Both the position numbers and the translations under genes were made by a program. The notes beneath the pieces are model-generated. The model worked only from the letters and a program-made list of their open reading frames with translations, ran no database searches and was not told the origin of the DNA. A stretch of DNA of 41,527 nt from the NCBI GenBank assembly GCA_001830425.1, contig MIAA01000037.1, positions 1-41,527 on the forward strand, written 5' to 3'. Source of the DNA: Rhodospirillales bacterium RIFCSPLOWO2_02_FULL_58_16 (GTDB taxonomy: Bacteria; Pseudomonadota; Alphaproteobacteria; Rhodospirillales; 2-02-FULL-58-16). Below, piece after piece: positions 1 through 39,272 of this stretch (the stretch's first letter is position 1; each line of letters opens with the position of its first letter).

Positions 1-257
1 AAGAGGCCGGAATCCTGTACGGCAACTATGCCGAACTGGTGATCATGCGCCGCAACCATATCGCCCAATCCATCGCCCGCACGGAAAAGGAAATCGCCGC
101 CGCCCGCGACATCCTGCGCGAGGCCTACCGGGAACTGAAGAAATATCAGGTCGCCCAGGAAAACCGGGAGAAACGCGAAGCCCTGGAACTGGCCCGCAAG
201 GACCAGGCCTTCCTCGACGAGGTAGGCCTGCAAAGCTTCCGCCGCAAACGGGCGTGA
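1..257 (+). CDS. FliJ-like flagellar export protein, C-terminal part
   Basis: Only the last 84 or so codons are in the window; the frame is open from base 3, so the true start lies upstream. The visible protein is almost entirely charged alpha-helix with coiled-coil character (RTEKEIAAARDILREAYREL) and ends in a basic tail (FRRKRA). The order of a helical hairpin, a RELKKY motif and a basic tail resembles the C-terminus of alphaproteobacterial FliJ, the chaperone and ATPase-stalk component of the flagellar type III export apparatus. That match is from memory of the family. Another short coiled-coil protein is possible. The next gene is a toxin-antitoxin module that is unlikely to be functionally linked. 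Confidence 0.5.
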   Translation, partial: EAGILYGNYAELVIMRRNHIAQSIARTEKEIAAARDILREAYRELKKYQVAQENREKREALELARKDQAFLDEVGLQSFRRKRA

Positions 258-291
258 AGCCAGTGGCCCCGTCGAAAAATCGTACTAAAAA

Positions 292-308
292 ATAGCATTA
301 AATGCTAT
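292..308. promoter_or_regulatory. Palindromic operator of the first ParD/ParE pair
   Basis: Perfect 8-1-8 palindrome (ATAGCATT A AATGCTAT) about 30 bases before the antitoxin start. A TATACT -10-like hexamer (306-311) overlaps its right arm. This fits autorepression by the antitoxin, which is typical of ParD-type proteins. No convincing -35 box was found. Confidence 0.5.
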
Positions 309-337
309 ACTGCCCTAAACAGGCGGGCGGTTGAATC

Positions 338-589
338 ATGAACTTTACTATTGGCAAACACTTCGAAGAGTACGTTCGCAACAGGGTGGACGCAGGCAAA
401 TTCAACGATGCCGGCGAGGTTATAAGAGCCGGGTTGCGTCTGCTGGAAGAACGAGACCAAGCCCTAGAGGCGCAACTGGAAGCTCTGCGCCAGGACATCC
501 AGGCGGGTGTCGCCGACCTCGACAACAACCGACTCGGCAAGCGGACCGTTGCCGACATCATCCGCGATGTCGATGGCGAAACCGCATAA
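338..589 (+). CDS. parD: ParD-family (CC2985-type) antitoxin
   Basis: 83-residue protein beginning MNFTIGKHFEEYVRNRV and containing the AGEVIRAGLRLLEERD helix typical of the ribbon-helix-helix ParD/CC2985 antitoxins. The N-terminal half should dimerise and bind DNA, and the C-terminal helix should wrap the ParE toxin. The ATG at 338 follows an AGGCGGG ribosome-binding sequence. The gene is followed after 11 bases by the toxin gene at 601. The palindrome at 292-308 is the likely operator. The family is recognised from motif and context; the cognate toxin is adjacent, so the module looks intact. Confidence 0.85.
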   Translation: MNFTIGKHFEEYVRNRVDAGKFNDAGEVIRAGLRLLEERDQALEAQLEALRQDIQAGVADLDNNRLGKRTVADIIRDVDGETA

Positions 590-5384: not shown

Positions 5385-5410
5385 GACTCATTATAGTATA
5401 CAATCGGGCC
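5385..5410. promoter_or_regulatory. Very short divergent promoter region
   Basis: Only 26 bases separate the divergent starts of the ABC exporter (5384) and the first glycosyltransferase (5411). The AT-rich core carries TATAAT on the minus strand (5395-5390) and TATAGT/TATACA on the plus strand (5392-5402), each about 5-15 bases from an ATG, with no Shine-Dalgarno sequence. Both transcripts could be leaderless or nearly so. The -35 elements would have to lie inside the opposite genes, and none is convincing. Confidence 0.35.
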
Positions 5411-6628: not shown

Positions 6629-6629
6629 C

Positions 6630-26148: not shown

Positions 26149-27758
26149 CCGGCGTTTGGAAAATAAACATGACATGCCGCCCATGGCTGCTGATAATGGC
26201 TCCCTTAGGGGTGTTTTGGGCCTACGCCGTCTTCGTGATTGATCCGGCGTACTGGCACAGTCCCCACGAAGTCGCCAATCTCTCTCTCGGCCACGCCCTC
26301 AACATAGATCAATGGCTGGAACATGTCGGCAAGGGACGGCGCTCCCACTTCAATCTGTATGTCCATCCGGGCGTCCCGTTTCAGCTTCTAAGCTGGGCGG
26401 TTTACCGGCTTTCTGACCCGTTCGGCTTCCTCCCGGCTCAGGAGCTTATGGTAAAAACCCTGACCGACCCCCAGGCCTTTTATCTTCTCAGCCGCAGCGC
26501 CTGCCTTGTTATGACCGGATCGGCCATATATCTTCTTCTCCGTCGCTTGCCGGAGGCGCCGTTGCCGATAGCGCTGGCTATCGGTTTCAGCATCTTCGCT
26601 TATCAGCCGGTCTGGCAGTACAGCCTTCTCCTGCTCAACAACCAATCCTTCGGGCCGTTGGCGGCAGTGATCTTCTTTGTGGCCGGGTTGCGGGCGCTGG
26701 AGTCCGTGGATGCGGGACGCCGCAGCCCGTGGGTGCTGTTCGGCTTCATCGCCGCCGTTTCTTATACCATTGAGATGGAGTACTTTTCCTGGACCCTGGC
26801 CGCCGGCGCCGGGCTGCTTGCCGCCTTGATGGTCCGTCGCCTGACTCTGCGCCAAGCCATGGTATTCGGCGGATTTTTCCTGTTAGGATTCGCTCTGGGC
26901 CTTGAACTCGCCTCCTTGATCATGGACGGCAAGTTTACGCATCGGGTGATCGGCAAGATGTTTGCCTTCCAGGTCTCCGTCTTTCTCGACCCTGAATCGC
27001 TGGGGACGGCGCCGACGGGGCTTGGTCTTACGGCATTGATCAGGGGGGCATGGTTCCCGGCGGCGACGGCTTTCGGCTTGTTCATGGTTATCGGCGCCGC
27101 GTTGATTATCCGCCTTCGGCAGGGCCGTTCCGACCCGTCTTTCCTTGGTTGGGCAGCGCCGCCGGCGGTAATAGTGCTGACGGTTTTCGCCCTCGGCATT
27201 GTCGCCTACGTCAAGCTTCCTAATCCCAAGTATCTGGTGTCAAGCGTCAGTTTCATTCCTGTCGGCCTTTATTGGCTGTATCGCTGCGGGGGCGCGGCGA
27301 CGGTCAAGGCTTTGGCCCTGCCCGTGCTGGCGCTGGCCGCCGTCGCCATGGTCAGAGAAGCCGATGTCGAACGGCTGGCCAAGAAGGAAGAGGCCGCCCT
27401 GATCGATGATCGTCGCCGAATCCTGGCATTGCCGCTGGCCCCCGGCCAAAAACGACTGTGGACATACAGGATGCGCATGCCCGAATACGGCACGCGGCTG
27501 ACGATTCAGTGGTCGGCGGTGCGTTCCTATGACTCTTTGGTCGATGATCGCCTGTTCCCCGACGACAGCGAATACAATATTTGGCGCGGCGGCGTCAGAA
27601 TCAATAATGTCTGGCATTCCCTGAAGGACATCGACTGGCGCTATGCCGTTTTTAACAGAACGAACGATATCCAAGGCCTGCCTGAAGAATTTCGGGAATC
27701 GACAGCCGATTTGATCCAACTGGACAAGGTTACCGTCGCCGTCAGCCGAAACCGATAA
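26145..27758 (+). CDS. Multi-pass membrane protein, GT-C glycosyltransferase-like
   Basis: 537 residues, translationally coupled to the radical SAM gene by ATGA. About ten hydrophobic helices fill residues 12-410, followed by a soluble C-terminal domain of about 130 residues. The first periplasmic loop has acidic and His residues (VIDPAYWHSPHEVAN) and the motif LYVHPGVPFQ, like the catalytic loop and HPP-type motif of GT39/ArnT-like GT-C enzymes. Those use polyprenyl-phosphate sugars as donors, and the gene at 28539 could make such a donor. No close family is recognised, so the GT-C assignment is tentative. Confidence 0.6.
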   Translation: MTGVWKINMTCRPWLLIMAPLGVFWAYAVFVIDPAYWHSPHEVANLSLGHALNIDQWLEHVGKGRRSHFNLYVHPGVPFQLLSWAVYRLSDPFGFLPAQELMVKTLTDPQAFYLLSRSACLVMTGSAIYLLLRRLPEAPLPIALAIGFSIFAYQPVWQYSLLLLNNQSFGPLAAVIFFVAGLRALESVDAGRRSPWVLFGFIAAVSYTIEMEYFSWTLAAGAGLLAALMVRRLTLRQAMVFGGFFLLGFALGLELASLIMDGKFTHRVIGKMFAFQVSVFLDPESLGTAPTGLGLTALIRGAWFPAATAFGLFMVIGAALIIRLRQGRSDPSFLGWAAPPAVIVLTVFALGIVAYVKLPNPKYLVSSVSFIPVGLYWLYRCGGAATVKALALPVLALAAVAMVREADVERLAKKEEAALIDDRRRILALPLAPGQKRLWTYRMRMPEYGTRLTIQWSAVRSYDSLVDDRLFPDDSEYNIWRGGVRINNVWHSLKDIDWRYAVFNRTNDIQGLPEEFRESTADLIQLDKVTVAVSRNR

Positions 27759-27768
27759 AAGGAGCGAT

Positions 27769-28542
27769 ATGACCGTTTTTCAGGATTACGCCCGGTACTA
27801 TGACCTGATCTACCGGGACAAGGATTATAAAGGCGAGGTTGACTTTGTCATAAGTCGTCTTGCCTTCCTGCACCCGACGGCGCGAACCATTCTGGACCTC
27901 GGCTGCGGTACCGGAGCGCATGCCGAGGCCTTCGCCGAGGCCGGTTTCCCGGTCACCGGAATCGACCTGAGCGGGCCGATGATAAAAGGCGCAAAACGGC
28001 GCCGAAAAAGCCTGCCTGAAGATATTGCAAAAAGGATGGTTTTTCGCCGGGGAGACGCGAGAAACATCCGGCTTGAGGGAAAGCGTTTCGACCTCGCGGC
28101 ATTTCTGTTCCACAGCCTGTGCTACCAGATCAGCGACGAGGAAGTCATCAACGCGCTGGCGACGGCGCGAGCGCATCTGAACCCGAAAGGCGTCGTGCTG
28201 TTTGATTTCTGGCACGGGCCGGGCGTTCTTTCAAAGCCGCCGGAAACCAGGGAAAAGCGCGTGCAGACCGATGATGTCATTATCACGCGAATCTCCGAAC
28301 CAAGCCGTGACGCAAAGACCAATACCGTCGTCGTGAACTATGATCTTTCGATTGAGGATATAAAAACAGGCGCCGTCGCCAACATAAAGGAAGCGCATCG
28401 GGTGCGTTACTTCTTCAAGGAAGAAATCCTGCGCTTCCTGGCAAGCGCCGGGCTGACGCCTGTAGAAATCAGGCCATGGGGCGGCGCCGGGGAGCCTGGG
28501 GCCGACGACTGGAACGTCTATTGCGCGGCGCGGGCGCTCTAA
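27769..28542 (+). CDS. Class I SAM-dependent methyltransferase
   Basis: 257 residues with GGAG before the ATG. The SAM-binding motif ILDLGCGTGAHAEAFA starts near residue 41. Motif II-like VTGIDLSGPMIKGAKRR follows, then the acidic-loop region RRGDARNIRLEGKRFDL. This is the Methyltransf_25/11-type Rossmann fold. The N-terminus (DYARYYDLIYRDKDY) resembles small-molecule or glycan methyltransferases found in polysaccharide clusters. The substrate is not identifiable. Its 3' end overlaps by 4 bases the end of the convergent GT2 gene. Confidence 0.87.
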   Translation: MTVFQDYARYYDLIYRDKDYKGEVDFVISRLAFLHPTARTILDLGCGTGAHAEAFAEAGFPVTGIDLSGPMIKGAKRRRKSLPEDIAKRMVFRRGDARNIRLEGKRFDLAAFLFHSLCYQISDEEVINALATARAHLNPKGVVLFDFWHGPGVLSKPPETREKRVQTDDVIITRISEPSRDAKTNTVVVNYDLSIEDIKTGAVANIKEAHRVRYFFKEEILRFLASAGLTPVEIRPWGGAGEPGADDWNVYCAARAL

Positions 28543-29306
28543 CGGCGGAACGTCAGGCGCAGAATCGTCTTGAAACAATGCCACGCCGCCCAGGCAAGGC
28601 TGTTGACGGTCAGCGCCGTCTTCGAGACGCCTTTGGCGCGCGTTGACATAACGACCGGAATCTCGGAGATCGCCAAATCGGCGCGGTAGGCCTCGACAAG
28701 AAACGAAATACAATAATCCAGGTATTTGCCTTTGAGGCGAAGGGTGCGAAGAAGGGGGCGGCGAACGGCGTAGAAGCCGCTGGTGTAATCGCGATACTGC
28801 GGATTAAACAGGTGGCGAATAACAAAGTTGCCGAACAGGGAAACCATAATGGCCAACAGAGAATCCTCGCTCTCGAATACATTTTCAAGGAACTGTCGGA
28901 ACGTATTGCGCCCGCCATCCTTCCCGGCGCCCTTGATCCCCCCGCCGGCGACGTAGCGCGAGCCGATAACGACGTCGGCGCCTTTCCCGATTTCTGAAAG
29001 GAAGGCGCGGAGATAACCGGGATGCATGGTAAAGTCGGCGTCCATCCAAACCACCACCTCGCCCTGGGCGGCGTCGATTCCCGCCTGTATCGACTGAACC
29101 AGTCCGGGGTCCTCCGTCCGTAAAACAAGACGTAGCGCGGCATGTTTTTTTTGGGACTCGCGAACCGCATCGGAAGTTCCGTCGGGAGAATTATCATCCA
29201 CCACCAGGATTTCAATATCAATCCCCGCAAGCTCATCATAAATGAGGTCGACCAGCGGGCCGATGTTTTCGACCTCGTTGTAGGTGGGAATGACTACCGA
29301 CAGCAT
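28539..29306 (-). CDS. Family 2 glycosyltransferase, polyprenyl-phosphate mannose/glucose synthase type
   Basis: 255 residues from the ATG at 29306, which has GGAG nine bases upstream; starts at 29330 and 29336 are also open. The GT-A domain begins MLSVVIPTYNEVENIGPLVD and has DDNSPDGTSD and the metal motif WMDADFTMHP. Later come VIGSRYVAGG and a segment FRQFLENVF, typical of dolichyl-phosphate mannosyltransferase-like (DPM1) enzymes. There are no C-terminal membrane helices. It would transfer a sugar to a polyprenyl phosphate at the cytoplasmic face, supplying GT-C enzymes such as the candidate at 26145. It is convergent with the methyltransferase gene. Confidence 0.87.
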   Translation of the reverse strand: MLSVVIPTYNEVENIGPLVDLIYDELAGIDIEILVVDDNSPDGTSDAVRESQKKHAALRLVLRTEDPGLVQSIQAGIDAAQGEVVVWMDADFTMHPGYLRAFLSEIGKGADVVIGSRYVAGGGIKGAGKDGGRNTFRQFLENVFESEDSLLAIMVSLFGNFVIRHLFNPQYRDYTSGFYAVRRPLLRTLRLKGKYLDYCISFLVEAYRADLAISEIPVVMSTRAKGVSKTALTVNSLAWAAWHCFKTILRLTFRR

Positions 29307-29414
29307 TGCGGCATTCTCCAAAATATTCATCCCCATTCCCGATCCGGCCTCATTATAATGCCCGTTTCCACGCCCGTGATCATTCGGCTATAACATACCG
29401 CCAAGGAGCCTTCC

Positions 29415-29813
29415 ATGCAGCATTCAAAACCCGCGCCGGTCTTCACGGACAATCGGGGATCCATCACCGATATTCTGGCCAAGGTCCCCCTGGATGCGGT
29501 CACGATTATCCGTTCCAATAAAGGAGTGGTGCGCGGCAATCATTACCACAAGAATACGGTGCAGTGGATTTATCTGCAATCGGGACGGCTCAAGTCTCTG
29601 ACCCAGACAGGAGATGCCCCGGTCGTCGCCGGCATCCTGGAACCGGGCGACCTGCTGTTGACGGAGGCCCTCGAAAAACACGCCATTATCGCTCTTGAAG
29701 ACTCGGAATTCTTCGTCTTTACCCACGGCCCTCGCGGCGGCGACGGTTACGAGGACGACACCTATCCCCTGGAAATCCCCCTGGAGGCCGTGGAGATAAA
29801 GCTCCAGGCTTGA
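29415..29813 (+). CDS. Single-domain cupin protein
   Basis: 132 residues preceded by AAGGAG. The cupin motif 1 is VRGNHYHKNTVQWIYLQSG (His ligands in HYH). Motif 2 lies around PGDLLLTEALEKHAIIAL. The N-terminus (FTDNRGSITDIL) resembles WxcM/FdtA-type sugar-associated cupins and some carboxymuconolactone-type ones. It probably binds a metal and a small sugar or acidic ligand; reaction unknown. The next gene, a cytochrome, starts 32 bases later. Divergent from the GT2 gene across about 108 bases. Confidence 0.75.
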   Translation: MQHSKPAPVFTDNRGSITDILAKVPLDAVTIIRSNKGVVRGNHYHKNTVQWIYLQSGRLKSLTQTGDAPVVAGILEPGDLLLTEALEKHAIIALEDSEFFVFTHGPRGGDGYEDDTYPLEIPLEAVEIKLQA

Positions 29814-29845
29814 ATTGTCGACGGTTTTTGAAAGAAAAGGTTTCC

Positions 29846-30406
29846 ATGTCAATTGATCAGTCGGGACGGGTTCGGCTGCCGAAAAGCAAATTCGCATGGC
29901 TCGGCATTTTTGTCGCCGGAGGCGTCGCCGGTATTTTATTCCTCAGCGGCTCCGGCATGCTCTTTGATAAAAGCGAGAGCCTTGAATACTGTATTTCATG
30001 CCATGAGATGGAGCAGAACGTCTATCAGGAATACAAACAGACCATCCACTATTCAAACCGCACCGGCGTGCGGGTGGAATGCGCGGACTGCCATATTCCC
30101 AAATCCTGGTATGGCCGCGTTTATGGTAAAATCGCGGCCCTGCACAAGCTCTATCACAATATCCTCGGCGATGTGGATACTTCCGAGAAGTTCGAGGCCA
30201 AACGCCTTGAGCTGGCGCAAACCGTGTGGGCGGAGTTTGAAGCCGACGGCTCCAAGGCGTGCAAAAACTGCCACTCGTTCGAGGCTATGGATTCTCACAG
30301 GCAGTCCGAGGACGCCAAGAACGCGATGACGGCGGCCAAAGAAGAAAACATGAGCTGCATCGATTGCCACAAGGGCGTAGCCCACAAACTGCCCGAGGGC
30401 TATTAG
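29846..30406 (+). CDS. Tetrahaem c-type cytochrome, NapC/NirT/NrfH family
   Basis: 186 residues from the ATG at 29846. One N-terminal membrane anchor (residues 16-38) is followed by a periplasmic domain with four haem motifs: CISCH (49-53), CADCH (79-83), CKNCH (139-143), CIDCH (171-175). Proteins of this family take electrons from quinol and pass them to periplasmic reductases for nitrate, nitrite, TMAO and similar acceptors. No reductase gene is adjacent, so the partner is elsewhere. Its stop codon overlaps, on the other strand, the stop of rpmJ. Confidence 0.92.
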
Positions 30407-30528
30407 CCCTGCCTTACCTTGAGGCGCGGGTTGCGCTTGTTGATCACATAGAGGCGGCCATGCCGCCGAACGATACGGCAGTTTTTATCGCGTGACCTTG
30501 CCGACTTCAGTGAGTTTCTTATTTTCAT
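30403..30528 (-). CDS. rpmJ: 50S ribosomal protein L36 (bL36, 41-residue form)
   Basis: 41 residues, [20 protein letters not shown] to the end NPRLKVRQG, an unmistakable L36 of the longer form usual in alphaproteobacteria. It contains a single Cys (residue 17), so the zinc ribbon of the short form is absent. It is easily missed because of its size. The TTGACA-17-TATTTT promoter is upstream at 30611-30583. It converges tail to tail with the cytochrome gene; the stop codons share two bases. Confidence 0.97.
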
Positions 30529-30582
30529 GGTCCAAATCCTCTTGTTCCGTCCGCCCGCGTCCGTAGAGCGGCAGAGGCGCGG

Positions 30583-30611
30583 AAAATAGAGGCAAGCCGA
30601 CGCTATGTCAA
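30583..30611 (-). promoter_or_regulatory. Promoter of rpmJ
   Basis: On the minus strand: -35 TTGACA (30611-30606), 17-base spacer, -10 TATTTT (30588-30583). This is a near-consensus sigma-70 promoter about 55 bases before the rpmJ start, giving a short 5' leader. Confidence 0.65.
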
Positions 30612-30626
30612 CGTAAAGCGGTTGCG

Positions 30627-31346
30627 CTATTTTACGGCGGTTGATAGCAGACGGTCGGTCGCGGTTTCAATGTCGTTTTTCAGCCGTTCCAGAAACTCCC
30701 TGTTATCGAGTCCCGGCGGTATCGGCTTCAGGAATTCGATGGTTATCGTTCCCGGCTGCTTGATGAAGCTTCGGCGGCTCCAGAACAGGCCGGAGTTCAG
30801 GGCCACCGGCGTCACCGGAACGCCTGTTTGCTTGTAGACGACGGCCACTCCCGGCAGATAGTCTCTATGCTCTCCCGGCGCGACCCGCGTGCCTTCGGGG
30901 AAGATGACGATCTGTTGTCCGTCGGCGAGGGCGCGCTTGGCGCCGCGCACCATCGCCTTGACGGCGCCGGCGCCGGCCTTGCGGTCTACCGCGATGACTC
31001 CCATTTTGCGGATGATGGCGCCATAGAGGGGAACCCACAGCAGTTCCCGTTTTACGATATAGGCCGGTTCGTCGATCAAAATATTGAAGATGGCGGTATC
31101 CCAGGCTGATTGGTGCTTGCCGGCGAAAATGACCGGACCTTTAGGGATATTCTCGCGTCCCACGACCCGGTAATCGAGGCCGACGATGAGTTTGAGGCCG
31201 CCGAAAATAATTCTCGCCCACAGGCTCGCCCCCTTGAGCACGACACTGCGGGGAAAAGGCAGGAAAAAGCAAAGGACGATCATATGGATAATCGTCCATG
31301 CCGCCATGAAAGCATTGAAAACCAGCGAACGGAAGACTTTCATCAA
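30627..31346 (-). CDS. plsC: 1-acyl-sn-glycerol-3-phosphate acyltransferase
   Basis: 239 residues, with an alternative start 3 bases in. An N-terminal membrane segment ([17 protein letters not shown]) is followed by the acyltransferase motifs: catalytic H-x4-D in [28 protein letters not shown], and [11 protein letters not shown]. The enzyme makes phosphatidic acid from lysophosphatidic acid at the inner membrane. It lies three bases after the ydcF-like gene and follows ftsE-ftsX-ydcF in the same direction, a common alphaproteobacterial order. Confidence 0.93.
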
Positions 31347-31349
31347 GGT

Positions 31350-31973
31350 CTATCCTTTTACCAGCAGCGTCACGCCGAGCATGCGCAGGCGGACAAGAAG
31401 AAACTTGTTGTATTCGCCGATGATCAGGCCGGTGGTCCCCGGCCATATCCACCACAGGTCGCGCTTGACGTGCGTGGGAAACACCGGGTGGGGAATGAAT
31501 ACGGCGTCAGGCAGCGCCTCGCGGAATTCCAGCAGGCTGCGCGGCATATGATAACTTGAGGTGACGATGCGAAGCGAGTTGATCCCGTGCCGTCGCGCCC
31601 AGGCGGCGGTCTCGGCGGCGTTGCCGGTGGTATCATCGGCGCTGTAGCCGATTTCGACGCAGCATTTGAACCCTTCGGGCGCGCGCTGTGAAAGCTCAAG
31701 CAGCTTGTTGACATCAATGCCGCGATAAACGCCGGAGACAAACAGCTTGTCGGCAAACTTCCCGGCCAACAGTTCCAGGCCTTCGCTCAACCGCCCGCTG
31801 CCGCCGGTCAGAACGACGATGGCGTCGGTGCGGGTGGCGGCGTCTTCGACCCGGACAGGGATGGCGGCGGCGAAGGCAAACAAGCCGATCCCCCAAGCGA
31901 TGACGGCAATAATAATGATCGCCGACAAGCCGATAAAAAATCGTCTGAACTTATATGGTCGTCGATAGAGCAT
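31350..31973 (-). CDS. YdcF-family (DUF218) membrane protein
   Basis: 207 residues from the ATG at 31973, which lies just after the ftsX stop (31976); longer frames run into ftsX. One N-terminal membrane helix (IGLSAIIIIAVIAWGIGLF) is followed by a DUF218 domain: DAIVVLTGGSGRLSEGLELL, KLFVSGVYRGID, and IVTSSYHMPRSLLEF. The family includes ElyC and SanA, which affect envelope polysaccharide and peptidoglycan precursor use. The biochemical function is unclear. It is in an operon with ftsEX and plsC. Confidence 0.88.
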   Translation of the reverse strand: MLYRRPYKFRRFFIGLSAIIIIAVIAWGIGLFAFAAAIPVRVEDAATRTDAIVVLTGGSGRLSEGLELLAGKFADKLFVSGVYRGIDVNKLLELSQRAPEGFKCCVEIGYSADDTTGNAAETAAWARRHGINSLRIVTSSYHMPRSLLEFREALPDAVFIPHPVFPTHVKRDLWWIWPGTTGLIIGEYNKFLLVRLRMLGVTLLVKG

Positions 31974-31975
31974 CG

Positions 31976-32860
31976 TCAGATCATCTTGATCAGTGTTTTG
32001 GTTACGGTCAGGTGGGCGGTCAGCATGGCGATTACGGCCACCGCCGGCGGCAGGCCGGCGAGAACCGCCCAGTGCAGCGCGCTCAACGAGAAGTCGGGAA
32101 GAAGCCCGGTCTCCATTTGCGTCGCCAGATGGCCGATCCCAAGCAGCGAGGGTATGGCCAGCGCCAGCCCGATGCCGCCCCCCTGTAGCCCCAGCATCAG
32201 AGCGCGGGTGGCGAACTGCTCGGCGATATAGGAGTCCTGGGCGCCGATGTGGTGCAGGACCTCTATCGCTTCGCGATGAATCGCCAGACCGGTGCGGGTG
32301 GTGAAAATGACGGTGCCTACGGTGGAAAGGCAAACCAGCGCCAGCACGGCGGCGGCCAGTCCCTCCACCGTGCGGATAAGGTTGATCAGTCTTTTGAGCC
32401 AGATTCTGTGATCGTCGATGGAAGCGCCCGCCGCCGCCGCCTCCAGCCGCCTGGTCAGCGCCGCCGTATCCGGGTCGGCGCCGTCTTCCAGTTCAACATC
32501 AATGAGGTGGGGAAGCGGCAAATCCTTGGCTTTGCCGAGGGCGCCCAGCCACGGCTCCAGCAGGGCCATGATCTCGGCGTCGCTGATGATCTTCGCATCG
32601 GCGACGCCGGGGGTCGCGTGCAGAACGGTCAGCGCCGCCTGTAGGCGCATTTCTTCCTTCTCGACGCTGGTTTCCAGAGGCGCAATCTGAACGGTAAGGG
32701 CGCCGCTTATGCCCTTGTTCCAGCGCGACGCCGTTGCGTTCAGCGCCATCACCCCGGCCAGGGTCATCACCGCCAGAAAAACCATAAAGGCGATCAACCA
32801 CGGCAAAAACCGGCTCAAGGAGTCGCTGTCAAGAGGAAGGTCCGTGCGGCGCGTCAACAT
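31976..32860 (-). CDS. ftsX: Cell division permease-like protein FtsX
   Basis: 294 residues. Cytoplasmic N-terminus, TM1 (LPWLIAFMVFLAVMTLAGVM), a periplasmic domain of about 120 residues with the usual FtsX pattern (VQIAPLETSVEKEEM, HATPGVADAKIISDAE), then three further helices (AVLALVCLSTVGTVIF and others). The segment TRTGLAIHREAIEVLHHIGA is the conserved cytoplasmic loop. With FtsE it controls septal peptidoglycan hydrolases. Its first base overlaps the ftsE stop. Confidence 0.93.
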   Translation of the reverse strand: MLTRRTDLPLDSDSLSRFLPWLIAFMVFLAVMTLAGVMALNATASRWNKGISGALTVQIAPLETSVEKEEMRLQAALTVLHATPGVADAKIISDAEIMALLEPWLGALGKAKDLPLPHLIDVELEDGADPDTAALTRRLEAAAAGASIDDHRIWLKRLINLIRTVEGLAAAVLALVCLSTVGTVIFTTRTGLAIHREAIEVLHHIGAQDSYIAEQFATRALMLGLQGGGIGLALAIPSLLGIGHLATQMETGLLPDFSLSALHWAVLAGLPPAVAVIAMLTAHLTVTKTLIKMI

Positions 32861-33585
32861 CAGGTTACAGTCTCAGGGGTTAATCCGAATACCGAAGAAA
32901 TCTTGGCGTTCATCTCCAGATTGCCTTTTTCCAGGCGCATGCAGTGATGGCCGAGGCGTCTGACCAGAGATTCATTGTGGGTGGCGATGACGATGGTGGT
33001 CCCCAGCTTGTTGAGTTCTTCAAACAAATGCATGATGCGCAACGCCATTTGGTCATCGACGTTGCCGGTCGGCTCGTCGGCAAGCAGCAGCTTCGGCCTG
33101 GCGATGATCGCCCTGGCGATGGCTACTCTTTGCTGTTGCCCGCCGGACATGGTCGGAGGCCGCGCTTCCAGGTGATCTTTGAGTCCGACCCAGCTTAAAA
33201 GCTCCACCACATGTTTGCGGATGTCGTTCTCCTTGACTCCGGCCACGCGCAGCGGCAGAGCCACGTTGTCAAAGGCGGACAGATACGGCAGGAGGCGGAA
33301 TTCCTGGAAAACAACGCCGATCCGCCGGCGCAGAGCCGGCAGTTCCCGGCGTCCGGTAACGGCGATGTCGCGGCCGAACATGGATATCAGGCCCCTCGAC
33401 GGCTTCAGGGCCAGATACATCAGCTTGAGCAGCGAAGACTTGCCGGCGCCGCTGGCGCCGATAAGGAAATGGAAGGAGCCTGCCGTCATGGACAACGAAA
33501 TGTCCTGGAGCACTTCCGGCCCCAGGCCGTAACGCAACCCCACGTTCTCGAAGCGAACCACGCAGTCATCGGCTTTTGTATTCAC
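32860..33585 (-). CDS. ftsE: Cell division ATP-binding protein FtsE
   Basis: 241 residues from a GTG start with AGGAG seven bases upstream. Walker A GASGAGKS, signature MSGGQQQR, Walker B LLLADEPTGNVD and H-loop IVIATHN are all intact. The stretch RRRIGVVFQEFRLLPYLSAF is typical of FtsE. It ends in a tail of about 25 residues longer than E. coli FtsE. ATPase partner of FtsX; together they regulate cell-wall hydrolysis during division. The divergent toxin gene starts about 120 bases away. Confidence 0.93.
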   Translation of the reverse strand: MNTKADDCVVRFENVGLRYGLGPEVLQDISLSMTAGSFHFLIGASGAGKSSLLKLMYLALKPSRGLISMFGRDIAVTGRRELPALRRRIGVVFQEFRLLPYLSAFDNVALPLRVAGVKENDIRKHVVELLSWVGLKDHLEARPPTMSGGQQQRVAIARAIIARPKLLLADEPTGNVDDQMALRIMHLFEELNKLGTTIVIATHNESLVRRLGHHCMRLEKGNLEMNAKISSVFGLTPETVT

Positions 33586-33673
33586 TCACCCGCTCCTGTC
33601 TCATCGGCGAACAATGACACGGTGAAAGACCCGAGGTCCATCCCTTATACTCCGTCTTGCGCGACTTCGATTA

Positions 33674-33701
33674 TTGACTATATATAGCGAACAGCTATAC
33701 T
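33674..33701 (+). promoter_or_regulatory. Promoter with overlapping operator for the RelE/XRE pair
   Basis: -35 TTGACT (33674-33679), 16-base spacer, -10 TATACT (33696-33701). An inverted repeat TATAGC-GAACA-GCTATA (33683-33699) lies across the spacer and -10 box, as expected for an autorepressed toxin-antitoxin operon. Transcription should begin close to the ATG at 33708, so the toxin mRNA may be leaderless. Confidence 0.6.
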
Positions 33702-33707
33702 ATGTAT

Positions 33708-33968
33708 ATGGCATGGCGCATCGAATATTCCGCTGAAGCATTCGCCACCCTGCGGCGTATCCCCGCCAATCTGGCGCGGACAATCCGGGGAAAGGTTGAA
33801 CGCCTGGCCGCCGACCCCTACGCGCCCAACAACAATGTTCGGGCGCTCAAGGGGCGATCAGGCTATCGGCTTCGGGTCGGGAATTGGCGGGTGCTTTACG
33901 AGCTTCGCGGCGACGCGCTTTTGGTTCATGTGATGGCGGTTGCCCCGCGTGGCGGCGCCTATGATTAA
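33708..33968 (+). CDS. RelE/ParE-superfamily toxin
   Basis: 86 residues from the ATG at 33708 (the ATG at 33702 overlaps the end of the -10 box). The sequence MAWRIEYSAEAFATLRRIPA, then VRALKGRSGYRLRVGNWRVLYEL and LLVHVMAVAPRGGAY is classic RelE, including the basic RLRVGxWRVLY segment. Such toxins cleave mRNA at the ribosome. Toxin precedes antitoxin, as in RelE/XRE pairs. Upstream promoter and operator are visible. The next gene begins 9 bases later. Confidence 0.9.
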   Translation: MAWRIEYSAEAFATLRRIPANLARTIRGKVERLAADPYAPNNNVRALKGRSGYRLRVGNWRVLYELRGDALLVHVMAVAPRGGAYD

Positions 33969-33977
33969 GGATCGGTC

Positions 33978-34355
33978 ATGGTTAAACCGCAAGTAATTAC
34001 CGGCAAGAACGGCAAACCCGCCTATGCGGTCATTCCGTGGGCGCTGTGGGAGCGGGTGCGCCCCTTCGCCGAGGACATGTCGGACGAAGACTTGTTCGAC
34101 GCCGCCGAGGCCCGCCGCTCGGAATCATTCCCGTCCGAGGTGGTCAACGCTGTTTTAAACGGCGCCAATCCGATCAAAACGCTGCGCGGATATCGCGGCC
34201 TGACCCAGGCCGCCCTGGCCCAAGCGGCGGGCATCGGTAAACTGTACCTCTCGCAAATCGAAACCGGTCGCCGGAAAGGTTCGCTAGACACCCTGCGCGC
34301 ATTGGCAAAAACGTTGCGGGTGGAACTGGAGCTGATCGCGCCGCCGGCCAAATAG
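33978..34355 (+). CDS. XRE-family antitoxin with an N-terminal antitoxin domain
   Basis: 125 residues. The N-terminal part (VITGKNGKPAYAVIPWALWE) resembles Phd/RelB-type antitoxin starts. A central acidic linker follows (DMSDEDLFDAAEA). The C-terminal helix-turn-helix is XRE type: YRGLTQAALAQAAGIGKLYL, SQIETGRRKGSLDTLRALAK. It should neutralise the RelE-type toxin and repress the operon at the 33683-33699 palindrome. Ends just before an inverted-repeat element. Confidence 0.9.
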   Translation: MVKPQVITGKNGKPAYAVIPWALWERVRPFAEDMSDEDLFDAAEARRSESFPSEVVNAVLNGANPIKTLRGYRGLTQAALAQAAGIGKLYLSQIETGRRKGSLDTLRALAKTLRVELELIAPPAK

Positions 34356-34359
34356 GCGA

Positions 34360-34459
34360 AATTACGGGGACATCGCTACGCTCACTCACAGCGGTCAATA
34401 TCAGTGACCCCCGGTATAATGTGTCCCCGTAATTGCCCGTAATTGCGTCCCCGTAATTT
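34360..34459. repeat. Short inverted-repeat element with extra end copy
   Basis: Perfect 13-bp inverted ends AATTACGGGGACA (34360-34372) and TGTCCCCGTAATT (34422-34434) bracket 49 bases. Partial and near copies of the right end follow (CCCGTAATT at 34436-34444, GTCCCCGTAATT at 34447-34458). Inside lies the CGGTCAATATCAGTGACC motif shared with 24603-24620. It has no coding capacity. It resembles REP/MITE-type elements built around GGGGACA ends and sits exactly at the junction between the toxin-antitoxin pair and the NTPase gene. Confidence 0.7.
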
Positions 34460-34494
34460 GAGAATAATATCGGCGGCTGGTGCTGTCGGCTGAC

Positions 34495-34520
34495 CCTGCA
34501 AGAAAGCTTCCTCTTGCAGG
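34495..34520. promoter_or_regulatory. Inverted repeat upstream of the NTPase gene
   Basis: Perfect 9-bp inverted repeat CCTGCAAGA/TCTTGCAGG with an 8-base loop, ending 63 bases before the NTPase start. It could be an operator or a leader hairpin. The rest of 34521-34583 has no clear promoter. Confidence 0.4.
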
Positions 34521-34583
34521 CCGCAGTAACATAGGACCATCATGACGTGACCGTGAGCAACAATCCTCGCCGGTAATTAGTAG

Positions 34584-37500
34584 ATGCGCCCAGAATTCAT
34601 ACAGCTCGATAGAAAGTTCGTAAAATACGACCCTGGCCAAGACCAGGAAGGGATAGCCGCACGAAGCTATCTGAGCGACGACTTTCTCAGCCACGACTCG
34701 AAATGGACCTGGGAAAAGCTTCTCGACCATGGCCGGGTAGTTGTTCTCGGAGAGGCGGGAAGCGGGAAAACCTGGGAATTAGAGGCTCAGGTTGATAGAT
34801 TAGCCTCAACGGATAAGTATGCATTCTTCGTGCGTCTTGAAAATCTAGCTGAAAATGAACTGACCAACATCCTATCTGAGGGTAGTCTTGCGCGGTTCAA
34901 TGAATGGAAGAACAGCACGGTTGATGCGTATTTCTTCCTCGACGCCGTCGACGAGAGCCGCCTCAAGAACTTTCACGCATTTGAACGGGCGCTTGGGAGT
35001 TTCGCCCGCTCCTTGGGATATGACGTAGCCCGCGCCCGAACAGTCATTTCGTCACGAGTCACCGAATGGCGTGGCGAAGCCGACAGCACGCTAATAAAGC
35101 AACATCTGCCTGTCAGTCCCAAGAAAACGAAAGCAGCATCTGCCGAACCCGGCACGACGCAGGTAGAGACGGCAGACGCCTCAGCAAATGGCTTTGCCAT
35201 ATATGGCGAGGAGACTTTCGCAAACAAAGATGGCGCCGATAAACCACAGCCTGTTCTGGTCGTACAGATAGCCCCTTTGCAGCAAGACCAAGTTCGCAAA
35301 CTCGCCGCCGCCCGCATCAAGGAGGCGGACGCCTTCGTAGAGGCAATCAAAAATCGCGATATATGGAGTTTCGCACGCCGCCCCCTGGATGTGGAAGACC
35401 TGATAGCCTATTGGGCCGAGCGCATAGGACTGGGGTCACTGTCTGATCTTCAGGAATTCAGCGTTACAAGGAAGCTTAATGAGCCGAACCAGCGCCGAAC
35501 CCAAGACGATCCACTTGACCGGACACGAGCACAGGAAGGCGCCGAAACTCTCGCTGCGGCCGCGATCCTTGCCAAGAAATTATCCTTCGCCCATCCCGAA
35601 TCGAGCATGACCGGCACCGCCGACAATTCCGCCCTTGATCCAAAACATATCCTGCCGACATGGAAAACGGGAGAACTGAAGGCCCTCTTTGCCCGTCCCC
35701 TGTTCGATGGAGCCGCCTTCGAGAAAGTTCGCTTTCATCATCGCAAAACCATCGAATATCTCGCCGCTTGCTGGTTTAGCAGACTCGTAGAGGCCAATCT
35801 TCCACTCGTCGGATTGCATCGCCTGATATTTTTAAACAGCCACGGCCTTCGAGTCATCCCGCCATCGCTGGCCCCGGTCGCGGCTTGGCTGGCCGGATGG
35901 TTTCCGACGATCCGCAAGGTAGTTTTGGAAACCGACCCGGATATTCTGCTCTTGCACGGCGACCCAAGCTTGATCCCCCTGCCCGAACGGATCACGCTTC
36001 TTCAAAGGCTTGTTGACCGGAAGGTGCGGCGTCTGGACAGCTTCGACCCCGCCCAATTCCTCCGGCTTGCCGATCCGGGACTCGCCCCCTACATCGCCGG
36101 CGTTCTCCTGGACCCGGATATCCACGATGAAGCATGTGAACTTATGTTGGATATGGTCCGGCATGGAAGACTGATTGATTGCGCGGAAGCCGTCTTAACG
36201 GTGGCGACAAAAGCAACGACTCATCATAACCCTCGCTACGCTGCCATTTTAACCTTAAAGGAAGTTGGAAGCTCTCAACAACTTCAGACTCTTGCTGATG
36301 CGGCATTGGCCGGTCCGCCGCCGGGCGCCACCGAGGCGGCAATCCTCTGCCGAACGCTCTATCCGTGCGTAATTGACGAAGCCGGATTGGAGATGCTGAT
36401 TCGTCTCGCTCAACCATCAAGCAGCTCTACATTCGGTGGAATCGATTATACGCTTAAGGAGATTATACGAACGATATCAATGGATCGCCTCCCGGCCCTG
36501 ATGGCGTTGCTCGTCCGCCTTTCACGAGAAGAACCCTGGGTTCAAGGCGCTGCCCCACAATGTCTAAGCAAGGTTTCGTACCGGTTTCTTTGGGTCTATG
36601 AGCCGTTGCTGGTCACGGTCCAGCGCATCCTGCACACGGATGGATATATAGGGTTAACGTCGGTGCAGATTGCGGAAGCTATCGAGCGGTTGTCCCGCCT
36701 GCGCCGATACAATTCCAATTATCGCAATAACAAAAAACCACTGCAAGATGACCTTAATGCCCATCCGGAAGTACGGCGCCGATTATACTGGCGGCGCGTC
36801 GAAAAGCTTCCCCAACGCAATGACGATGACCAGATTTTGCATTATATGATCGCCGATTATGACGACCTCTGGTACTTGGCGGAGAGAGATTTCACATGGC
36901 TTCTGAATGATGTGACAACGGCTGCGGCCATAAAAGATCGCATCATTGCCTTGCGCGTTGTCCTCCAAATGTGGCGGCGAACAAGCAATCGATCCCCACG
37001 AATTTTGCGGGATATTCGCCGAGCAGCGCGGCGTGAACGTGAATTGCGCCAAGTTTATCGGCGGGAAAATCCAAATGGCGTCAAGCGTATCTGGCAGTGG
37101 ACGCACGGGAAGATCGACCACCTGAGACGGTTCGGCTTGCCAAACCATTGGCGGCACAAGGCGAGAAATGAATGGACCCGCTTCCGCATCTTTCTCGGCG
37201 CGATCCGATATTACCATGCCCTCCGAACAAAGGGCCACTATGGGTTGCTTCATAACTTGATTCTGGTCGATCAATATACCTTCGAAACCAGTTACGGCAA
37301 ATTCGATATCGACGCGATCAATCGCCGCTATGGCTCTATCATCGGCAAGGCGGCGTGCGAAGGCCTTAAAATATTCTGGAAACAATGGCGGTCGCCGCCA
37401 CGCAGCAGCAATCCCAACGTCATCTATCATGCCTCAATCATCGCCTTGATCGGCTTGGAAACCGCCGTCCGGGACGGCCTGGACATCACTTCCATCTCTC

Positions 37501-38912
37501 CCGATGAGGCGAAAATCGCAGCCGAACACGCCATGTATGAATTAAACGACTTTCCAAGTTGGATGCCAGCCCTGACGAAAGCCCATCCCGAGGTCGTGCG
37601 GCAGGTCTTCCACCCGCAGATCGAGGCAGAGTTTAATTTCCCTGCTGCTGCGGAAGGCCCACATGGGCTTCTGTCCAAACTTAGCTATGAAGAGCCGGAT
37701 GAGGTCCGTCACGTCAGTGCGCCTGACCTTCTCGATTTGCTCAAGCATGGCGACCCGGCCAATCTGATGGTTTTATCCTTTGTGCTGAATATCATGGCGC
37801 GATCCGGTCCTGACTTCCTCTTGGAACTGTCCCTTATGGCGCCGACACGAACAACGGCGGCGGCAAGGGGAAAAGAGGAACATTTCGTTCAATGGTTGGC
37901 GTTGTGGTTAAAATTGGATGCGCTTCCCGCCCTCAATTTTATCGAATCCCACTTGACCGCCTACCCCGCCGATGCCGACGGCTTCGTCGTTGAGCTTGCG
38001 GACAGCCTGTTTGGTGATCGGCATGGAAACGTTTCCATACCGGATCCTGATTATCGTCGTCTACCGACATTAAGGCGTTTAATTCCGATCCTTTGTCGTT
38101 ATATCCGGACGAAGGACGATTTGGTCCATGAGGGTGTGTACTCGCCGGGGGCCAGAGATGATGCTCAGAGATTCCGCGATATGGCCATTAACCGGCTGGT
38201 GAATACCCCAGAGGACCATGTTTACGATGCTATAAAGGAACTGGTTGATGATCCGGCGCTCGCCGGGCATCGTAACTGGTTATTGGCGAAGGCCATAGAA
38301 CGGGCCAAGACAGACGCCGAACCATCCCCTTGGGAGCCGAAGGATATTGCAGCATTCGTTGACCGGTTTGAACGCCCGCCGAAAACTCCGGATGAACTGT
38401 TTGATATCGTAATGGGACGCCTCGACGACATTCGGGAGGGCGCTGAACAAGGCGATTTTTCTTTGAAGGGAATGTTCGCTGAAAACACTGAGGAAGAGTT
38501 ATTCCAGAAGCTTCTGGCGGACCGACTCAATATAGCCAGCCGAGGCGTTTACCAGGTCGCCCGCGAGATCGAAGTGGCAGAGCATAAACGGCCCGACATC
38601 CGCGTTCTACGCACCGGCGCCGGTATCGTCACCATTGAGGTAAAAGTTGCAAACAAATGGAGCTACAACCAGCTTCGCAATGATGCGCTTGAGGGCCAAC
38701 TTGTCAAACAATACATGCGCATCCGCGAGTCCAGACATGGGGTTCTGCTGTTGGTGAATCTAAAGGCAGGAAGGAAATGGAAGCTATCGGGAGAACCCGG
38801 CATTAATTTTGCCGATCTCATCAAGCGCTTGGGAGAAAAATCCGAAAAGCTGGCAAAGTCACGGAGGCGAGAGGAGAAAATCAAAGTGGTTGGGATCGAC
38901 CTCGCTACCTGA
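34584..38912 (+). CDS. STAND/NACHT-like NTPase with C-terminal PD-(D/E)XK nuclease-like domain
   Basis: 1442 residues; an in-frame stop (34581-34583) fixes the ATG as earliest start. NTPase: Walker A GEAGSGKT (56-63), Walker B FFLDAVDES (117-125; NACHT-type acidic cluster), sensor-like TVISSRVTEW (153-162). VRFHHRKTIEYLAA (382-395) matches the FxHRxxxEYLAA helix of NACHT proteins. The long helical middle (about 400-1300) has a very basic patch (812-875). The C-terminal domain has RPDIRV (Asp1338) and VTIEVKVA (Glu1352, Lys1354), then LEGQLVKQYM, a good PD-(D/E)XK pattern. Family knowledge: STAND NTPases sense ligands, oligomerise and fire an effector, often against phage. Effector is at the C-terminus, unlike typical Avs proteins. 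The DNA looks more AT-rich than its neighbours. Function is inferred. Confidence 0.75.
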   Translation: MRPEFIQLDRKFVKYDPGQDQEGIAARSYLSDDFLSHDSKWTWEKLLDHGRVVVLGEAGSGKTWELEAQVDRLASTDKYAFFVRLENLAENELTNILSEGSLARFNEWKNSTVDAYFFLDAVDESRLKNFHAFERALGSFARSLGYDVARARTVISSRVTEWRGEADSTLIKQHLPVSPKKTKAASAEPGTTQVETADASANGFAIYGEETFANKDGADKPQPVLVVQIAPLQQDQVRKLAAARIKEADAFVEAIKNRDIWSFARRPLDVEDLIAYWAERIGLGSLSDLQEFSVTRKLNEPNQRRTQDDPLDRTRAQEGAETLAAAAILAKKLSFAHPESSMTGTADNSALDPKHILPTWKTGELKALFARPLFDGAAFEKVRFHHRKTIEYLAACWFSRLVEANLPLVGLHRLIFLNSHGLRVIPPSLAPVAAWLAGWFPTIRKVVLETDPDILLLHGDPSLIPLPERITLLQRLVDRKVRRLDSFDPAQFLRLADPGLAPYIAGVLLDPDIHDEACELMLDMVRHGRLIDCAEAVLTVATKATTHHNPRYAAILTLKEVGSSQQLQTLADAALAGPPPGATEAAILCRTLYPCVIDEAGLEMLIRLAQPSSSSTFGGIDYTLKEIIRTISMDRLPALMALLVRLSREEPWVQGAAPQCLSKVSYRFLWVYEPLLVTVQRILHTDGYIGLTSVQIAEAIERLSRLRRYNSNYRNNKKPLQDDLNAHPEVRRRLYWRRVEKLPQRNDDDQILHYMIADYDDLWYLAERDFTWLLNDVTTAAAIKDRIIALRVVLQMWRRTSNRSPRILRDIRRAARRERELRQVYRRENPNGVKRIWQWTHGKIDHLRRFGLPNHWRHKARNEWTRFRIFLGAIRYYHALRTKGHYGLLHNLILVDQYTFETSYGKFDIDAINRRYGSIIGKAACEGLKIFWKQWRSPPRSSNPNVIYHASIIALIGLETAVRDGLDITSISPDEAKIAAEHAMYELNDFPSWMPALTKAHPEVVRQVFHPQIEAEFNFPAAAEGPHGLLSKLSYEEPDEVRHVSAPDLLDLLKHGDPANLMVLSFVLNIMARSGPDFLLELSLMAPTRTTAAARGKEEHFVQWLALWLKLDALPALNFIESHLTAYPADADGFVVELADSLFGDRHGNVSIPDPDYRRLPTLRRLIPILCRYIRTKDDLVHEGVYSPGARDDAQRFRDMAINRLVNTPEDHVYDAIKELVDDPALAGHRNWLLAKAIERAKTDAEPSPWEPKDIAAFVDRFERPPKTPDELFDIVMGRLDDIREGAEQGDFSLKGMFAENTEEELFQKLLADRLNIASRGVYQVAREIEVAEHKRPDIRVLRTGAGIVTIEVKVANKWSYNQLRNDALEGQLVKQYMRIRESRHGVLLLVNLKAGRKWKLSGEPGINFADLIKRLGEKSEKLAKSRRREEKIKVVGIDLAT

Positions 38913-39080: not shown

Positions 39081-39272
39081 ATGATCAAGTTAAATCCCCG
39101 GCAGGAAAAGTTCTGGCGGTCCTTTGTTGTTTACGCCAACGCCGTCGAGATGCAGGCCAGGCCGGCCGGGAAAGTGGAGAAAACGGATACTATCCAATTC
39201 AGCGAAATGACGATAAATGACGATATTTTACGGGCAATTCAGATGCTGTTTCGTTTTGAATCAATGGGTTAA
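39081..39272 (+). CDS. Small protein of unknown function
   Basis: 63 residues from the ATG at 39081, supported by a consensus AGGAGG nine bases upstream and a strong promoter at 39018-39045. The sequence (MIKLNPRQEKFWRSFVVYAN, later IQFSEMTINDDILRAIQMLF) is mixed helical, with no signal peptide or recognisable motif. It stands alone between the NTPase gene and pyrB, both in the same direction, but has its own signals. It might be a partner or regulator of the NTPase or an unrelated orphan; nothing in the sequence decides this. Confidence 0.65.
   Translation: MIKLNPRQEKFWRSFVVYANAVEMQARPAGKVEKTDTIQFSEMTINDDILRAIQMLFRFESMG

Follow-up and report, generated by a model that had tools for sequence, protein, structure and literature searches.

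The DNA analyzed here, referred to below as the window, spans positions 1 to 41,527 (41,527 nucleotides) of contig MIAA01000037.1 in the assembly GCA_001830425.1 of Rhodospirillales bacterium RIFCSPLOWO2_02_FULL_58_16. It carries a gene whose 1442 codons form one intact, uninterrupted reading frame and whose product combines an N-terminal NACHT module, a HEAT-like solenoid and a predicted C-terminal PD-(D/E)XK nuclease domain (Table 1). A first-pass annotation of the letters had described this product as a giant NACHT-like NTPase with a C-terminal nuclease and had put it forward as a candidate anti-phage protein. Our analysis confirms the description and supports the interpretation as far as computation reaches, with phage defense itself being the part that we infer.

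Table 1. Features discussed in the text, with their positions in the window
Feature	Position	Strand	Details
HyoA-type NACHT-HEAT-nuclease gene	34584..38912	+	1442 aa, ATG start; NCBIfam NF058534, 1134.6 bits over residues 8-1441
NACHT module (nucleotide-binding, helical and winged-helix parts)	34584..36083	+	~residues 1-500; AlphaFold2 model, VIA matches
Walker A GEAGSGKT	34749..34772	+	residues 56-63; K62 in 79/80 rows
Walker B FFLDAVDE	34932..34955	+	residues 117-124; D120 and E124 in 80/80 rows
Invariant R158	35055..35057	+	80/80 aligned rows
VRFHHRKTIEYLAA	35727..35768	+	residues 382-395
HEAT-like alpha-solenoid, proposed sensor	36072..38423	+	~residues 497-1280; model, importin-beta rows, HEAT_2, alphaRep
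PD-(D/E)XK nuclease domain (predicted)	38436..38909	+	~residues 1285-1442; AlphaFold2 pLDDT 91.7, pTM 0.80; Foldseek, VIA
Triad D1338, E1352, K1354	38595..38645	+	intact in 77/80 rows
ParE/RelE-type toxin gene	33702..33968	+	ParE_toxin PF05016, E 2.3e-8; neighbor
Helix-turn-helix (HTH) antitoxin/regulator gene	33978..34355	+	HTH_31 PF13560, HTH_3 PF01381; neighbor
Repetitive extragenic palindrome (REP)-like inverted repeat	34349..34445		imperfect 24 bp, arms 34349-34372/34422-34445; between toxin-antitoxin pair and gene

Over nearly its whole length, the protein matches positions 1-1428 of the 1430-position NCBIfam model NF058534, "NACHT domain-containing antiphage protein HyoA" (E=0), and the two are almost equal in length. 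Since the score of 1134.6 bits falls under the curated equivalog cut-off of 1200 bits, identity as HyoA proper was rejected. Among six relatives scored against the same model, four exceed the cut-off (L075, 1214; L022, 1462; L013, 1496; L094, 1596) and two do not (L072 from Magnetospirillum sp. SS-4, 1098; L079, 1057). In a tree of 113 core sequences (FastTree), the window protein groups at 100% local support with L072, L079, L073 and L095, which are labeled Rhodospirillales or Rhodospirillaceae, Magnetospirillum among them. Because of its score and its grouping with these Rhodospirillales relatives, we describe the protein, as judged from its sequence, as a divergent HyoA-type protein outside NCBI's HyoA call. 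Chance can be excluded as the source of these features, since the sequence match runs the whole length of the model and since only one of 15 possible catalytic triad patterns is conserved (see below). That NCBIfam names the family as antiphage supports a role in defense and lowers the novelty of the proposal. The EruA model (NF058535) is matched only distantly, at 207.6 bits against a cut-off of 1000 and with residues 222-1379 as the best stretch; PADLOC gave no usable match for the 1442-residue protein (MTase_I, E 0.032), nor did a sequence search of the PDB.

The N-terminal module carries a Walker A motif, a DxxDE-type Walker B motif (FFLDAVDES, residues 117-125), the arginine R158, whose position we take to be that of the STAND sensor-1 arginine, and VRFHHRKTIEYLAA, presumably the end of the winged-helix part. 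Together we take these to be the motif set of NACHT-type STAND NTPases, and the set is complete in the 1442-residue protein; read in the translation, the Walker A, Walker B and VRFHHRKTIEYLAA motifs lie at exactly the residues that the first-pass annotation had given for them. Conservation was judged in an alignment of 80 rows, consisting of the window protein and 79 relatives (of 83 fetched) with a length of 1300 residues or more. As the Walker A and Walker B columns doubled as patterns in the search for relatives, their conservation is biased, whereas the C-terminal columns are free of this bias. Identity to the window protein was 22-40% in a sample of 50 relatives from the aligned set, and 62 of its 1442 residues, including 15 of 267 Asp, Glu and Lys residues, are common to at least 75 rows.

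Structure prediction bears out the NACHT/STAND assignment. An AlphaFold2 model of residues 1-1200, built with 51 sequences (mean predicted local distance difference test (pLDDT) 85.0; predicted template modeling score (pTM) 0.73), gave NLRC4 as its best VIA structure match (Z 15.3, root-mean-square deviation (rmsd) 6.4, 373 residues aligned, model 1..479). The top rows were mostly NLR proteins, with NLRP3, NOD2 and others at Z ~12-13 and aligned from residue 1 to ~480-530, and NLRC4, NLRP3 and NOD2 at Z 12-15 thus indicate a NACHT fold over ~residues 1-500 of the predicted model. Since the aligned range starts at residue 1, the chain begins at or beside the nucleotide-binding domain, and the 23-118 residues (median ~54 over the 80 rows) that precede Walker A leave scant space for an N-terminal effector domain. 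We consider fold and motifs together to be a stronger test for NACHT than the Pfam gathering score.

Beyond the NACHT module, importin-beta rows of the VIA search align over residues 497-1200 at an rmsd of at least 17, which indicates a solenoid and nothing more specific; alphaRep matches fall at profile positions ~510-590, and Pfam HEAT_2 is found under its cut-off (E 0.0005). The first-pass annotation had noted a very long helical, sensor-like region with a basic patch, and both are present in the window protein, where the most basic stretch of 60 residues starts at residue 803 (net +14) and residues 790-880 carry a net charge of +19. As a family trait, the patch did not hold up, because this region is net positive in only 54 of the 80 rows.

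The C-terminal domain was modeled separately (residues 1221-1442, 58 sequences) and shows, in model numbering, the element order H84-99 E104-107 E119-123 E127-135 H141-159 E165-172, which is the alpha-beta-beta-beta-alpha-beta core of PD-(D/E)XK nucleases. D1338 (model residue 118) lies just ahead of the second strand, and the third strand carries E1352-x-K1354 (132, 134). The absence of such a fold had been named beforehand as a finding that would refute the first-pass reading; the fold is predicted, and the D1338/E1352/K1354 pattern noted from the letters is present. VIA matched the model to Can2 (Z 9.6, rmsd 3.8, 125 aligned), OkrAI (9.0), and BglII and BamHI (both 8.6), and the best Foldseek match was McrC (E 0.0028, probability 0.99). 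Pfam HSDR_N was found at residues 1322-1378 under its cut-off (E 0.0017, 18.7 of 25.1 bits). McrC, the HsdR N-terminal domain and Can2/Card1 share the PD-(D/E)XK fold with the window nuclease by structure match and a weak profile match, but no solved chain matches the window nuclease significantly in sequence: a PDB search with the nuclease profile gave nothing convincing, the best hit being a ribosomal protein at E 0.077. Against viral models, 5 of 663 Foldseek matches reached E <=0.001, four of them unnamed, and some lower-ranked rows are named as restriction or PD-(D/E)XK endonucleases. Our call of a nuclease fold combines the evidence of the model, the motif and the Z-scores.

Conservation singles out the same residues. 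The protein contains 15 patterns of the form D-x(7-28)-[DE]-x-K, and only 1338/1352/1354 keeps all three residues in at least 75 of the 80 rows; among 106 nuclease-region rows, which were picked by the nuclease profile, identity is found in 102 at each of the positions E1304, E1328, D1338, E1352, K1354, Q1372 and Y1377. It could be argued that the domain binds DNA without cutting it or is a structural remnant, with the NACHT module acting otherwise, since a shared fold is no proof of activity and since in one Rhizobiaceae relative (L138) the triad is gone and two hydrophobic segments have been added. We consider this very unlikely, given that the triad is retained in 77 of 80 rows although sampled members are only 22-40% identical to the window protein and that an unrelated enzyme domain occupies the same place in one other member.

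That member belongs to a small set in which the C terminus differs. We found the full NACHT-HEAT core in 113 distinct complete proteins, the window protein included, of which 106 end in the nuclease (profile score >90 bits, a count that takes in L136 and L144, in both of which the first-listed nuclease domain is oddly placed) and seven do not. In L096 from Myxococcus, the C terminus is a PNP_UDP_1 nucleoside-phosphorylase domain (E 2.5e-17); in L153, from a viral contig, it is a G/N-rich stretch with one hydrophobic helix (by eye); and in L138, it is a nuclease-like region of 62 bits, without the triad, followed by the two hydrophobic segments. Membrane helices in these alternative tails were judged by eye. 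L198 ends within the nuclease and may be a simple truncation. The proteins of two related Rhizobium plasmids (L181 and L182) stop after the core; on each plasmid, the core gene shares 4 bases at its start with a Fic gene (PF02661, E 1.4e-14 and 1.7e-14). These pairs of Fic gene and nuclease-less core (L181, 6727-11612; L182, 6712-11615) possibly represent a two-gene system of receptor and Fic effector; no relative turned up when viral contigs were scanned with the Fic-linked core.

In L185/L203, too, the protein ends after the core, and it carries NFNDPVMVQAIGNGNTIHN close to that end. In L203, the core gene (5273-9205) is followed 15 bases on by a gene for a 112-residue protein (9221-9559) with NFNAPVTTQVVGDGATIIN from residue 5 and with no convincing Pfam match. 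The two motifs are identical at 11 of 19 positions, and their ungapped BLOSUM62 score of 57 compares with a maximum of 38 in 5000 shuffles, in a test of two 40-residue stretches that were picked after the likeness was seen; a pattern search of the other fetched loci found no motif like it. This RHIM-like pair suggests, by sequence likeness, that an effector may be recruited to the receptor's C terminus in an amyloid-type manner.

In the tree, the seven non-nuclease proteins are spread over six positions; the branch of L153 is long, and for L185 a long-branch join was flagged as possible. Such a pattern would be expected if the C terminus behaves as a swappable slot for effectors, which reverses the published layout with N-terminal effectors; the cases are few, and each kind is represented by one or two sequences. 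Non-nuclease versions are probably under-counted, since relatives were ranked by similarity to the full-length query. We lean toward regarding HyoA-type proteins as a mirror-image class of NLR-like receptor, in which a central sensor solenoid would be followed by a C-terminal slot for a nuclease, a nucleoside phosphorylase, membrane helices or nothing, the effector acting in trans when the slot is empty, either from the overlapping Fic gene or as a partner sharing the RHIM-like amyloid motif. L203 would then also mirror the published rule on where amyloid motifs are placed. In one genome collection alone (genome_contigs), an alignment scan showed that 406 of 555 candidate stretches encode a relative, of which the best 80 were kept, while a scan of the collection with a single sequence found none. 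A constant NACHT-HEAT core with a varied C terminus in so widespread a family suggests that domain order is not fixed, and raises the structural question of how an oligomer formed at the NACHT end activates effectors ~1300 residues away. Members with other tails are ready test pairs for separating the sensing and killing parts. As NCBIfam has already named the family, it is the mirrored, swappable slot that is, in our view, worth following up.

The known systems closest in composition have the opposite order. Published STAND immune proteins, with the bacterial relatives of NLRs among them, are described as carrying the effector at the N terminus and the sensor at the C terminus (PMC12169576, PMC12931631). 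bNACHT25, bNACHT32 and other bacterial NACHT defense proteins have an N-terminal DNase and C-terminal sensing (PMC12169576); they likewise hold a NACHT switch and a PD-(D/E)XK DNase in one chain, whereas the window protein has NACHT first and the DNase last. For STAND NTPases and Avs proteins, PMC12931631 gives the same order. Avs4 (PDB 8dgf) matches the STAND fold of the window protein (Foldseek E 1.4e-5; VIA Z 9.8, rmsd 6.3, 312 aligned), and both Avs/AVAST proteins (Avs4 and EfAvs5, PDB 9jap) and the window protein have a long helical region after the STAND module; the effector, however, is N-terminal in the former (PMC12931631) and C-terminal in the latter. Since the window protein lacks an N-terminal effector, with its NACHT match starting at residue 1 and its enzyme domain at the C terminus, identity as an Avs or bNACHT protein was rejected, and the reversal relative to Avs that the first-pass annotation had pointed out is real.

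Other published arrangements bear on the same question. Amyloid signaling motifs are placed at the N termini of NLRs and the C termini of effectors (PMC12261475), and the arrangement seen here is the reverse in effector placement and, in L203, in motif placement. C-terminal effectors occur in MoxR-vWA systems, and STAND modules are often C-terminal in fusions with glycosyltransferase domains (PMC8195603); a PIN domain and NACHT have been reported in one protein (PMC7159879), and a NACHT system with a metallophosphatase has been described (PMC13092281). Residues 1123-1267 of Upx (PDB 9wuf) align with the window nuclease (Z 6.8, rmsd 3.0, 106 aligned, 21% identity), a comparison that covers the nuclease part alone and is weak at Z <8. 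Our literature search, with partial coverage of subscription journals, found no description of a C-terminal nuclease on a NACHT protein and no paper on Upx.

The gene has a patchy distribution. It is present once in its own genome and in none of nine other genomes of the same family (listed completeness 77-97%). Counts that include its own genome are 13 of 317 in the order (core profile, E <=1e-60), 14 of 385 in the class (HyoA model, E 0.001) or 10 of 385 (core profile, E 1e-20), and 20 of 398 in the phylum (core profile, E 1e-20); eight of the 385 genomes of the class are over the HyoA cut-off (1203.5-1616.8 bits), and in another class of the phylum, sampled around a genome with a known match, the count is 8 of 350 (E 1e-60). 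Relatives were found in 65 of 72,556 plasmid records (typed as 32 conjugative, 6 mobilizable and 27 non-mobilizable), in 2 of 50,697 phage records, both Acinetobacter, and on three viral contigs. In the tree, copies labeled Chlorobiaceae, Roizmanbacteria, Desulfobulbaceae and Thiotrichaceae have end branches of ~0.1-0.3, which points to transfer between phyla, with the proviso that these copies come from metagenome-assembled genomes and that mis-binning is possible. The gene is thus accessory and horizontally spread; the opposite case, a core gene at a fixed locus, had been proposed beforehand as a refutation and is at odds with its absence from the other family genomes, its presence in 14 of 385 genomes of the class and its occurrence on plasmids and viral contigs.

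So many plasmid records also fit with a receptor that guards against plasmids or other mobile DNA instead of phages, using the same switch and nuclease, and the present data do not separate the two kinds of target. We regard this as unlikely, though the most serious of the alternatives, since the NCBIfam family name is antiphage and at least one copy (L153) lies within a phage late-gene region, with phage tail genes on one side and portal- and terminase-like genes on the other (by eye). In another locus (L152), where a phage-like block of late genes ends (by eye), the gene directly behind the HyoA-type gene encodes a 540-residue protein without a Pfam match (14329-15951, minus strand). In the record labeled Acinetobacter phage MD-2021a (L024), efflux and metabolic genes surround the relative, and the contig therefore looks chromosomal rather than phage.

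Some copies of the gene are interrupted. The most similar relative found (60-62% identical), at 9087-10576 of L046 from a genome of the same order (G043), consists of residues 1-173 followed by residues 1120-1441 in another frame; the internal loss of 946 residues (174-1119) arose through decay or assembly error. On many Burkholderia glumae plasmids, the genes listed under the match include one for an ISNCY transposase; the core match forms a single block of ~3.6 kb, and the insertion therefore appears to fall between the core and the C-terminal part. Such copies would be expected if this were a decaying accessory gene without present function in the lineage. The window copy, however, is intact over 1442 codons with all motifs present, and another genome of the same order, which has the gene in two pieces at two contig ends, more likely reflects an assembly break; we consider decay the least probable of the alternatives.

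In the window, the gene sits behind a ParE/RelE-type toxin gene adjoining an HTH gene, an arrangement that identifies a type II toxin-antitoxin pair. The first-pass annotation had placed the gene beside such a pair and a repeat element in more AT-rich DNA, and all three are found, the last in mild form: in 500-base steps, G+C is 0.51-0.57 within the gene, compared with 0.54-0.66 across 26000-34499 and 0.64-0.68 across pyrB-pyrC. The 13-base core of the repeat, TGTCCCCGTAATT, occurs five times at four places in the genome, and the reversed control pattern does not occur. Upstream of the pair, ftsX-ftsE lie on the opposite strand, and pyrB and pyrC lie downstream of the gene (names from translations), with a 63-codon open reading frame without a Pfam match at 39081-39272 between the gene and pyrB. 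The HTH neighbor also drew PADLOC matches (HTH_VI at E 8.5e-14, capH and others), which we set aside because they resemble generic HTH hits.

Because the pair is encoded on the gene's own strand and ends 228 bp ahead of it, it is conceivable that the 1442-residue protein is a stress-triggered or addiction-type toxin acting with the ParE/HTH pair, the HTH protein serving as its regulator; in the Acinetobacter phage-labeled record, too, a y4mF-type regulator lies upstream, with another regulator gene between. No ParE/HTH pair is annotated beside the gene in the other 12 contexts we read (PLSDB gene tables are incomplete), however, and the REP-like repeat separates pair and gene in the window, which makes an addiction role highly improbable.

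The surrounding gene order indicates where the block stands. Each of pyrB and ftsE is present in nine of the ten family genomes, its own included, and in all seven other genomes that have both they are on different contigs, which alone says little because the assemblies are fragmented. In all six ftsE loci read, a divergent gene of the MJ0042 zinc-ribbon type lies directly upstream of ftsE, and beyond it lies a further long gene, DUF4175 in most (names by eye). A search of the window's genome for DUF4175 placed it on a different contig (C27). The family gene order is thus broken at 33560-34584, and the block of toxin-antitoxin pair, repeat and HyoA-type gene sits at this break upstream of ftsE.

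Whether relatives keep company with defense genes, a check that the first-pass annotation had suggested, received a qualified answer. Genes within 3.5 kb of relatives, of which 122 proteins were scanned after a random draw from 338 of at least 170 residues, matched 205 PADLOC models. Genes no closer than 6.5 kb matched 26; here 142 proteins were drawn from 195, and all but the last 30 of them (112) were scanned. These tallies count models rather than proteins and display 25 models, many models fire on one OLD-like ATPase, and both sets come from the same loci. The enrichment points the right way and is suggestive, the comparison being poorly controlled. Phage integrases account for 5 of the 122 near genes, the set scanned with Pfam. 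Among 13 annotated contexts, we found SIR2 with an ATP-binding protein in Rhizobium johnstonii, SIR2 and a DEAD/DEAH helicase on a Klebsiella plasmid, a type III restriction system on a Vibrio plasmid, HEPN and Fic proteins on a P. aeruginosa plasmid and CHAT in Gluconobacter; no recognized defense gene was seen in Phaeobacter, Novosphingobium and some others of the 13. As there is no matched control, these contexts are support, not proof.

Taken together, we think it very probable that the product of the gene is an antiphage STAND receptor of the HyoA type whose layout is reversed. This reading draws directly on the HyoA homology, the two predicted enzyme folds, the conservation of both active sites, the patchy spread and the C-terminal variation on a constant core. 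Several observations weigh against it. The HyoA score is under NCBI's cut-off; the Pfam NACHT match is non-significant (E 0.21, 11.8 bits against a gathering score of 26.7); none of 579 Foldseek PDB matches of the nuclease model reaches E 0.001, and by the tool's own warning best VIA Z values of 7-8 are common; our literature search, partial for subscription journals, found no paper describing HyoA; the neighborhood comparison has no clean control; and no known defense gene was recognized among the other window genes, which were judged by eye, with PADLOC run on only the three proteins at 33702-38912.

If the protein is an antiphage receptor, we infer that residues 1-500 would form an NLR-like NACHT switch that is nucleotide-bound at rest, and that the HEAT-like solenoid (residues 500-1280) would sense a sign of infection, probably a protein of the phage itself or a host protein that the phage has altered. 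Such sensing would open the NACHT module and allow the protein to oligomerize; the oligomer would bring the C-terminal PD-(D/E)XK domains together to cut DNA, and cutting would kill or arrest the infected cell or destroy the phage DNA.

Finally, we note that two plasmid records of almost equal size and with identical match values, CP070278.1 (246,192 bases) and NZ_CP066788.1 (246,197 bases), are labeled Dysgonomonadaceae bacterium and Martelella; one of these labels is probably wrong.

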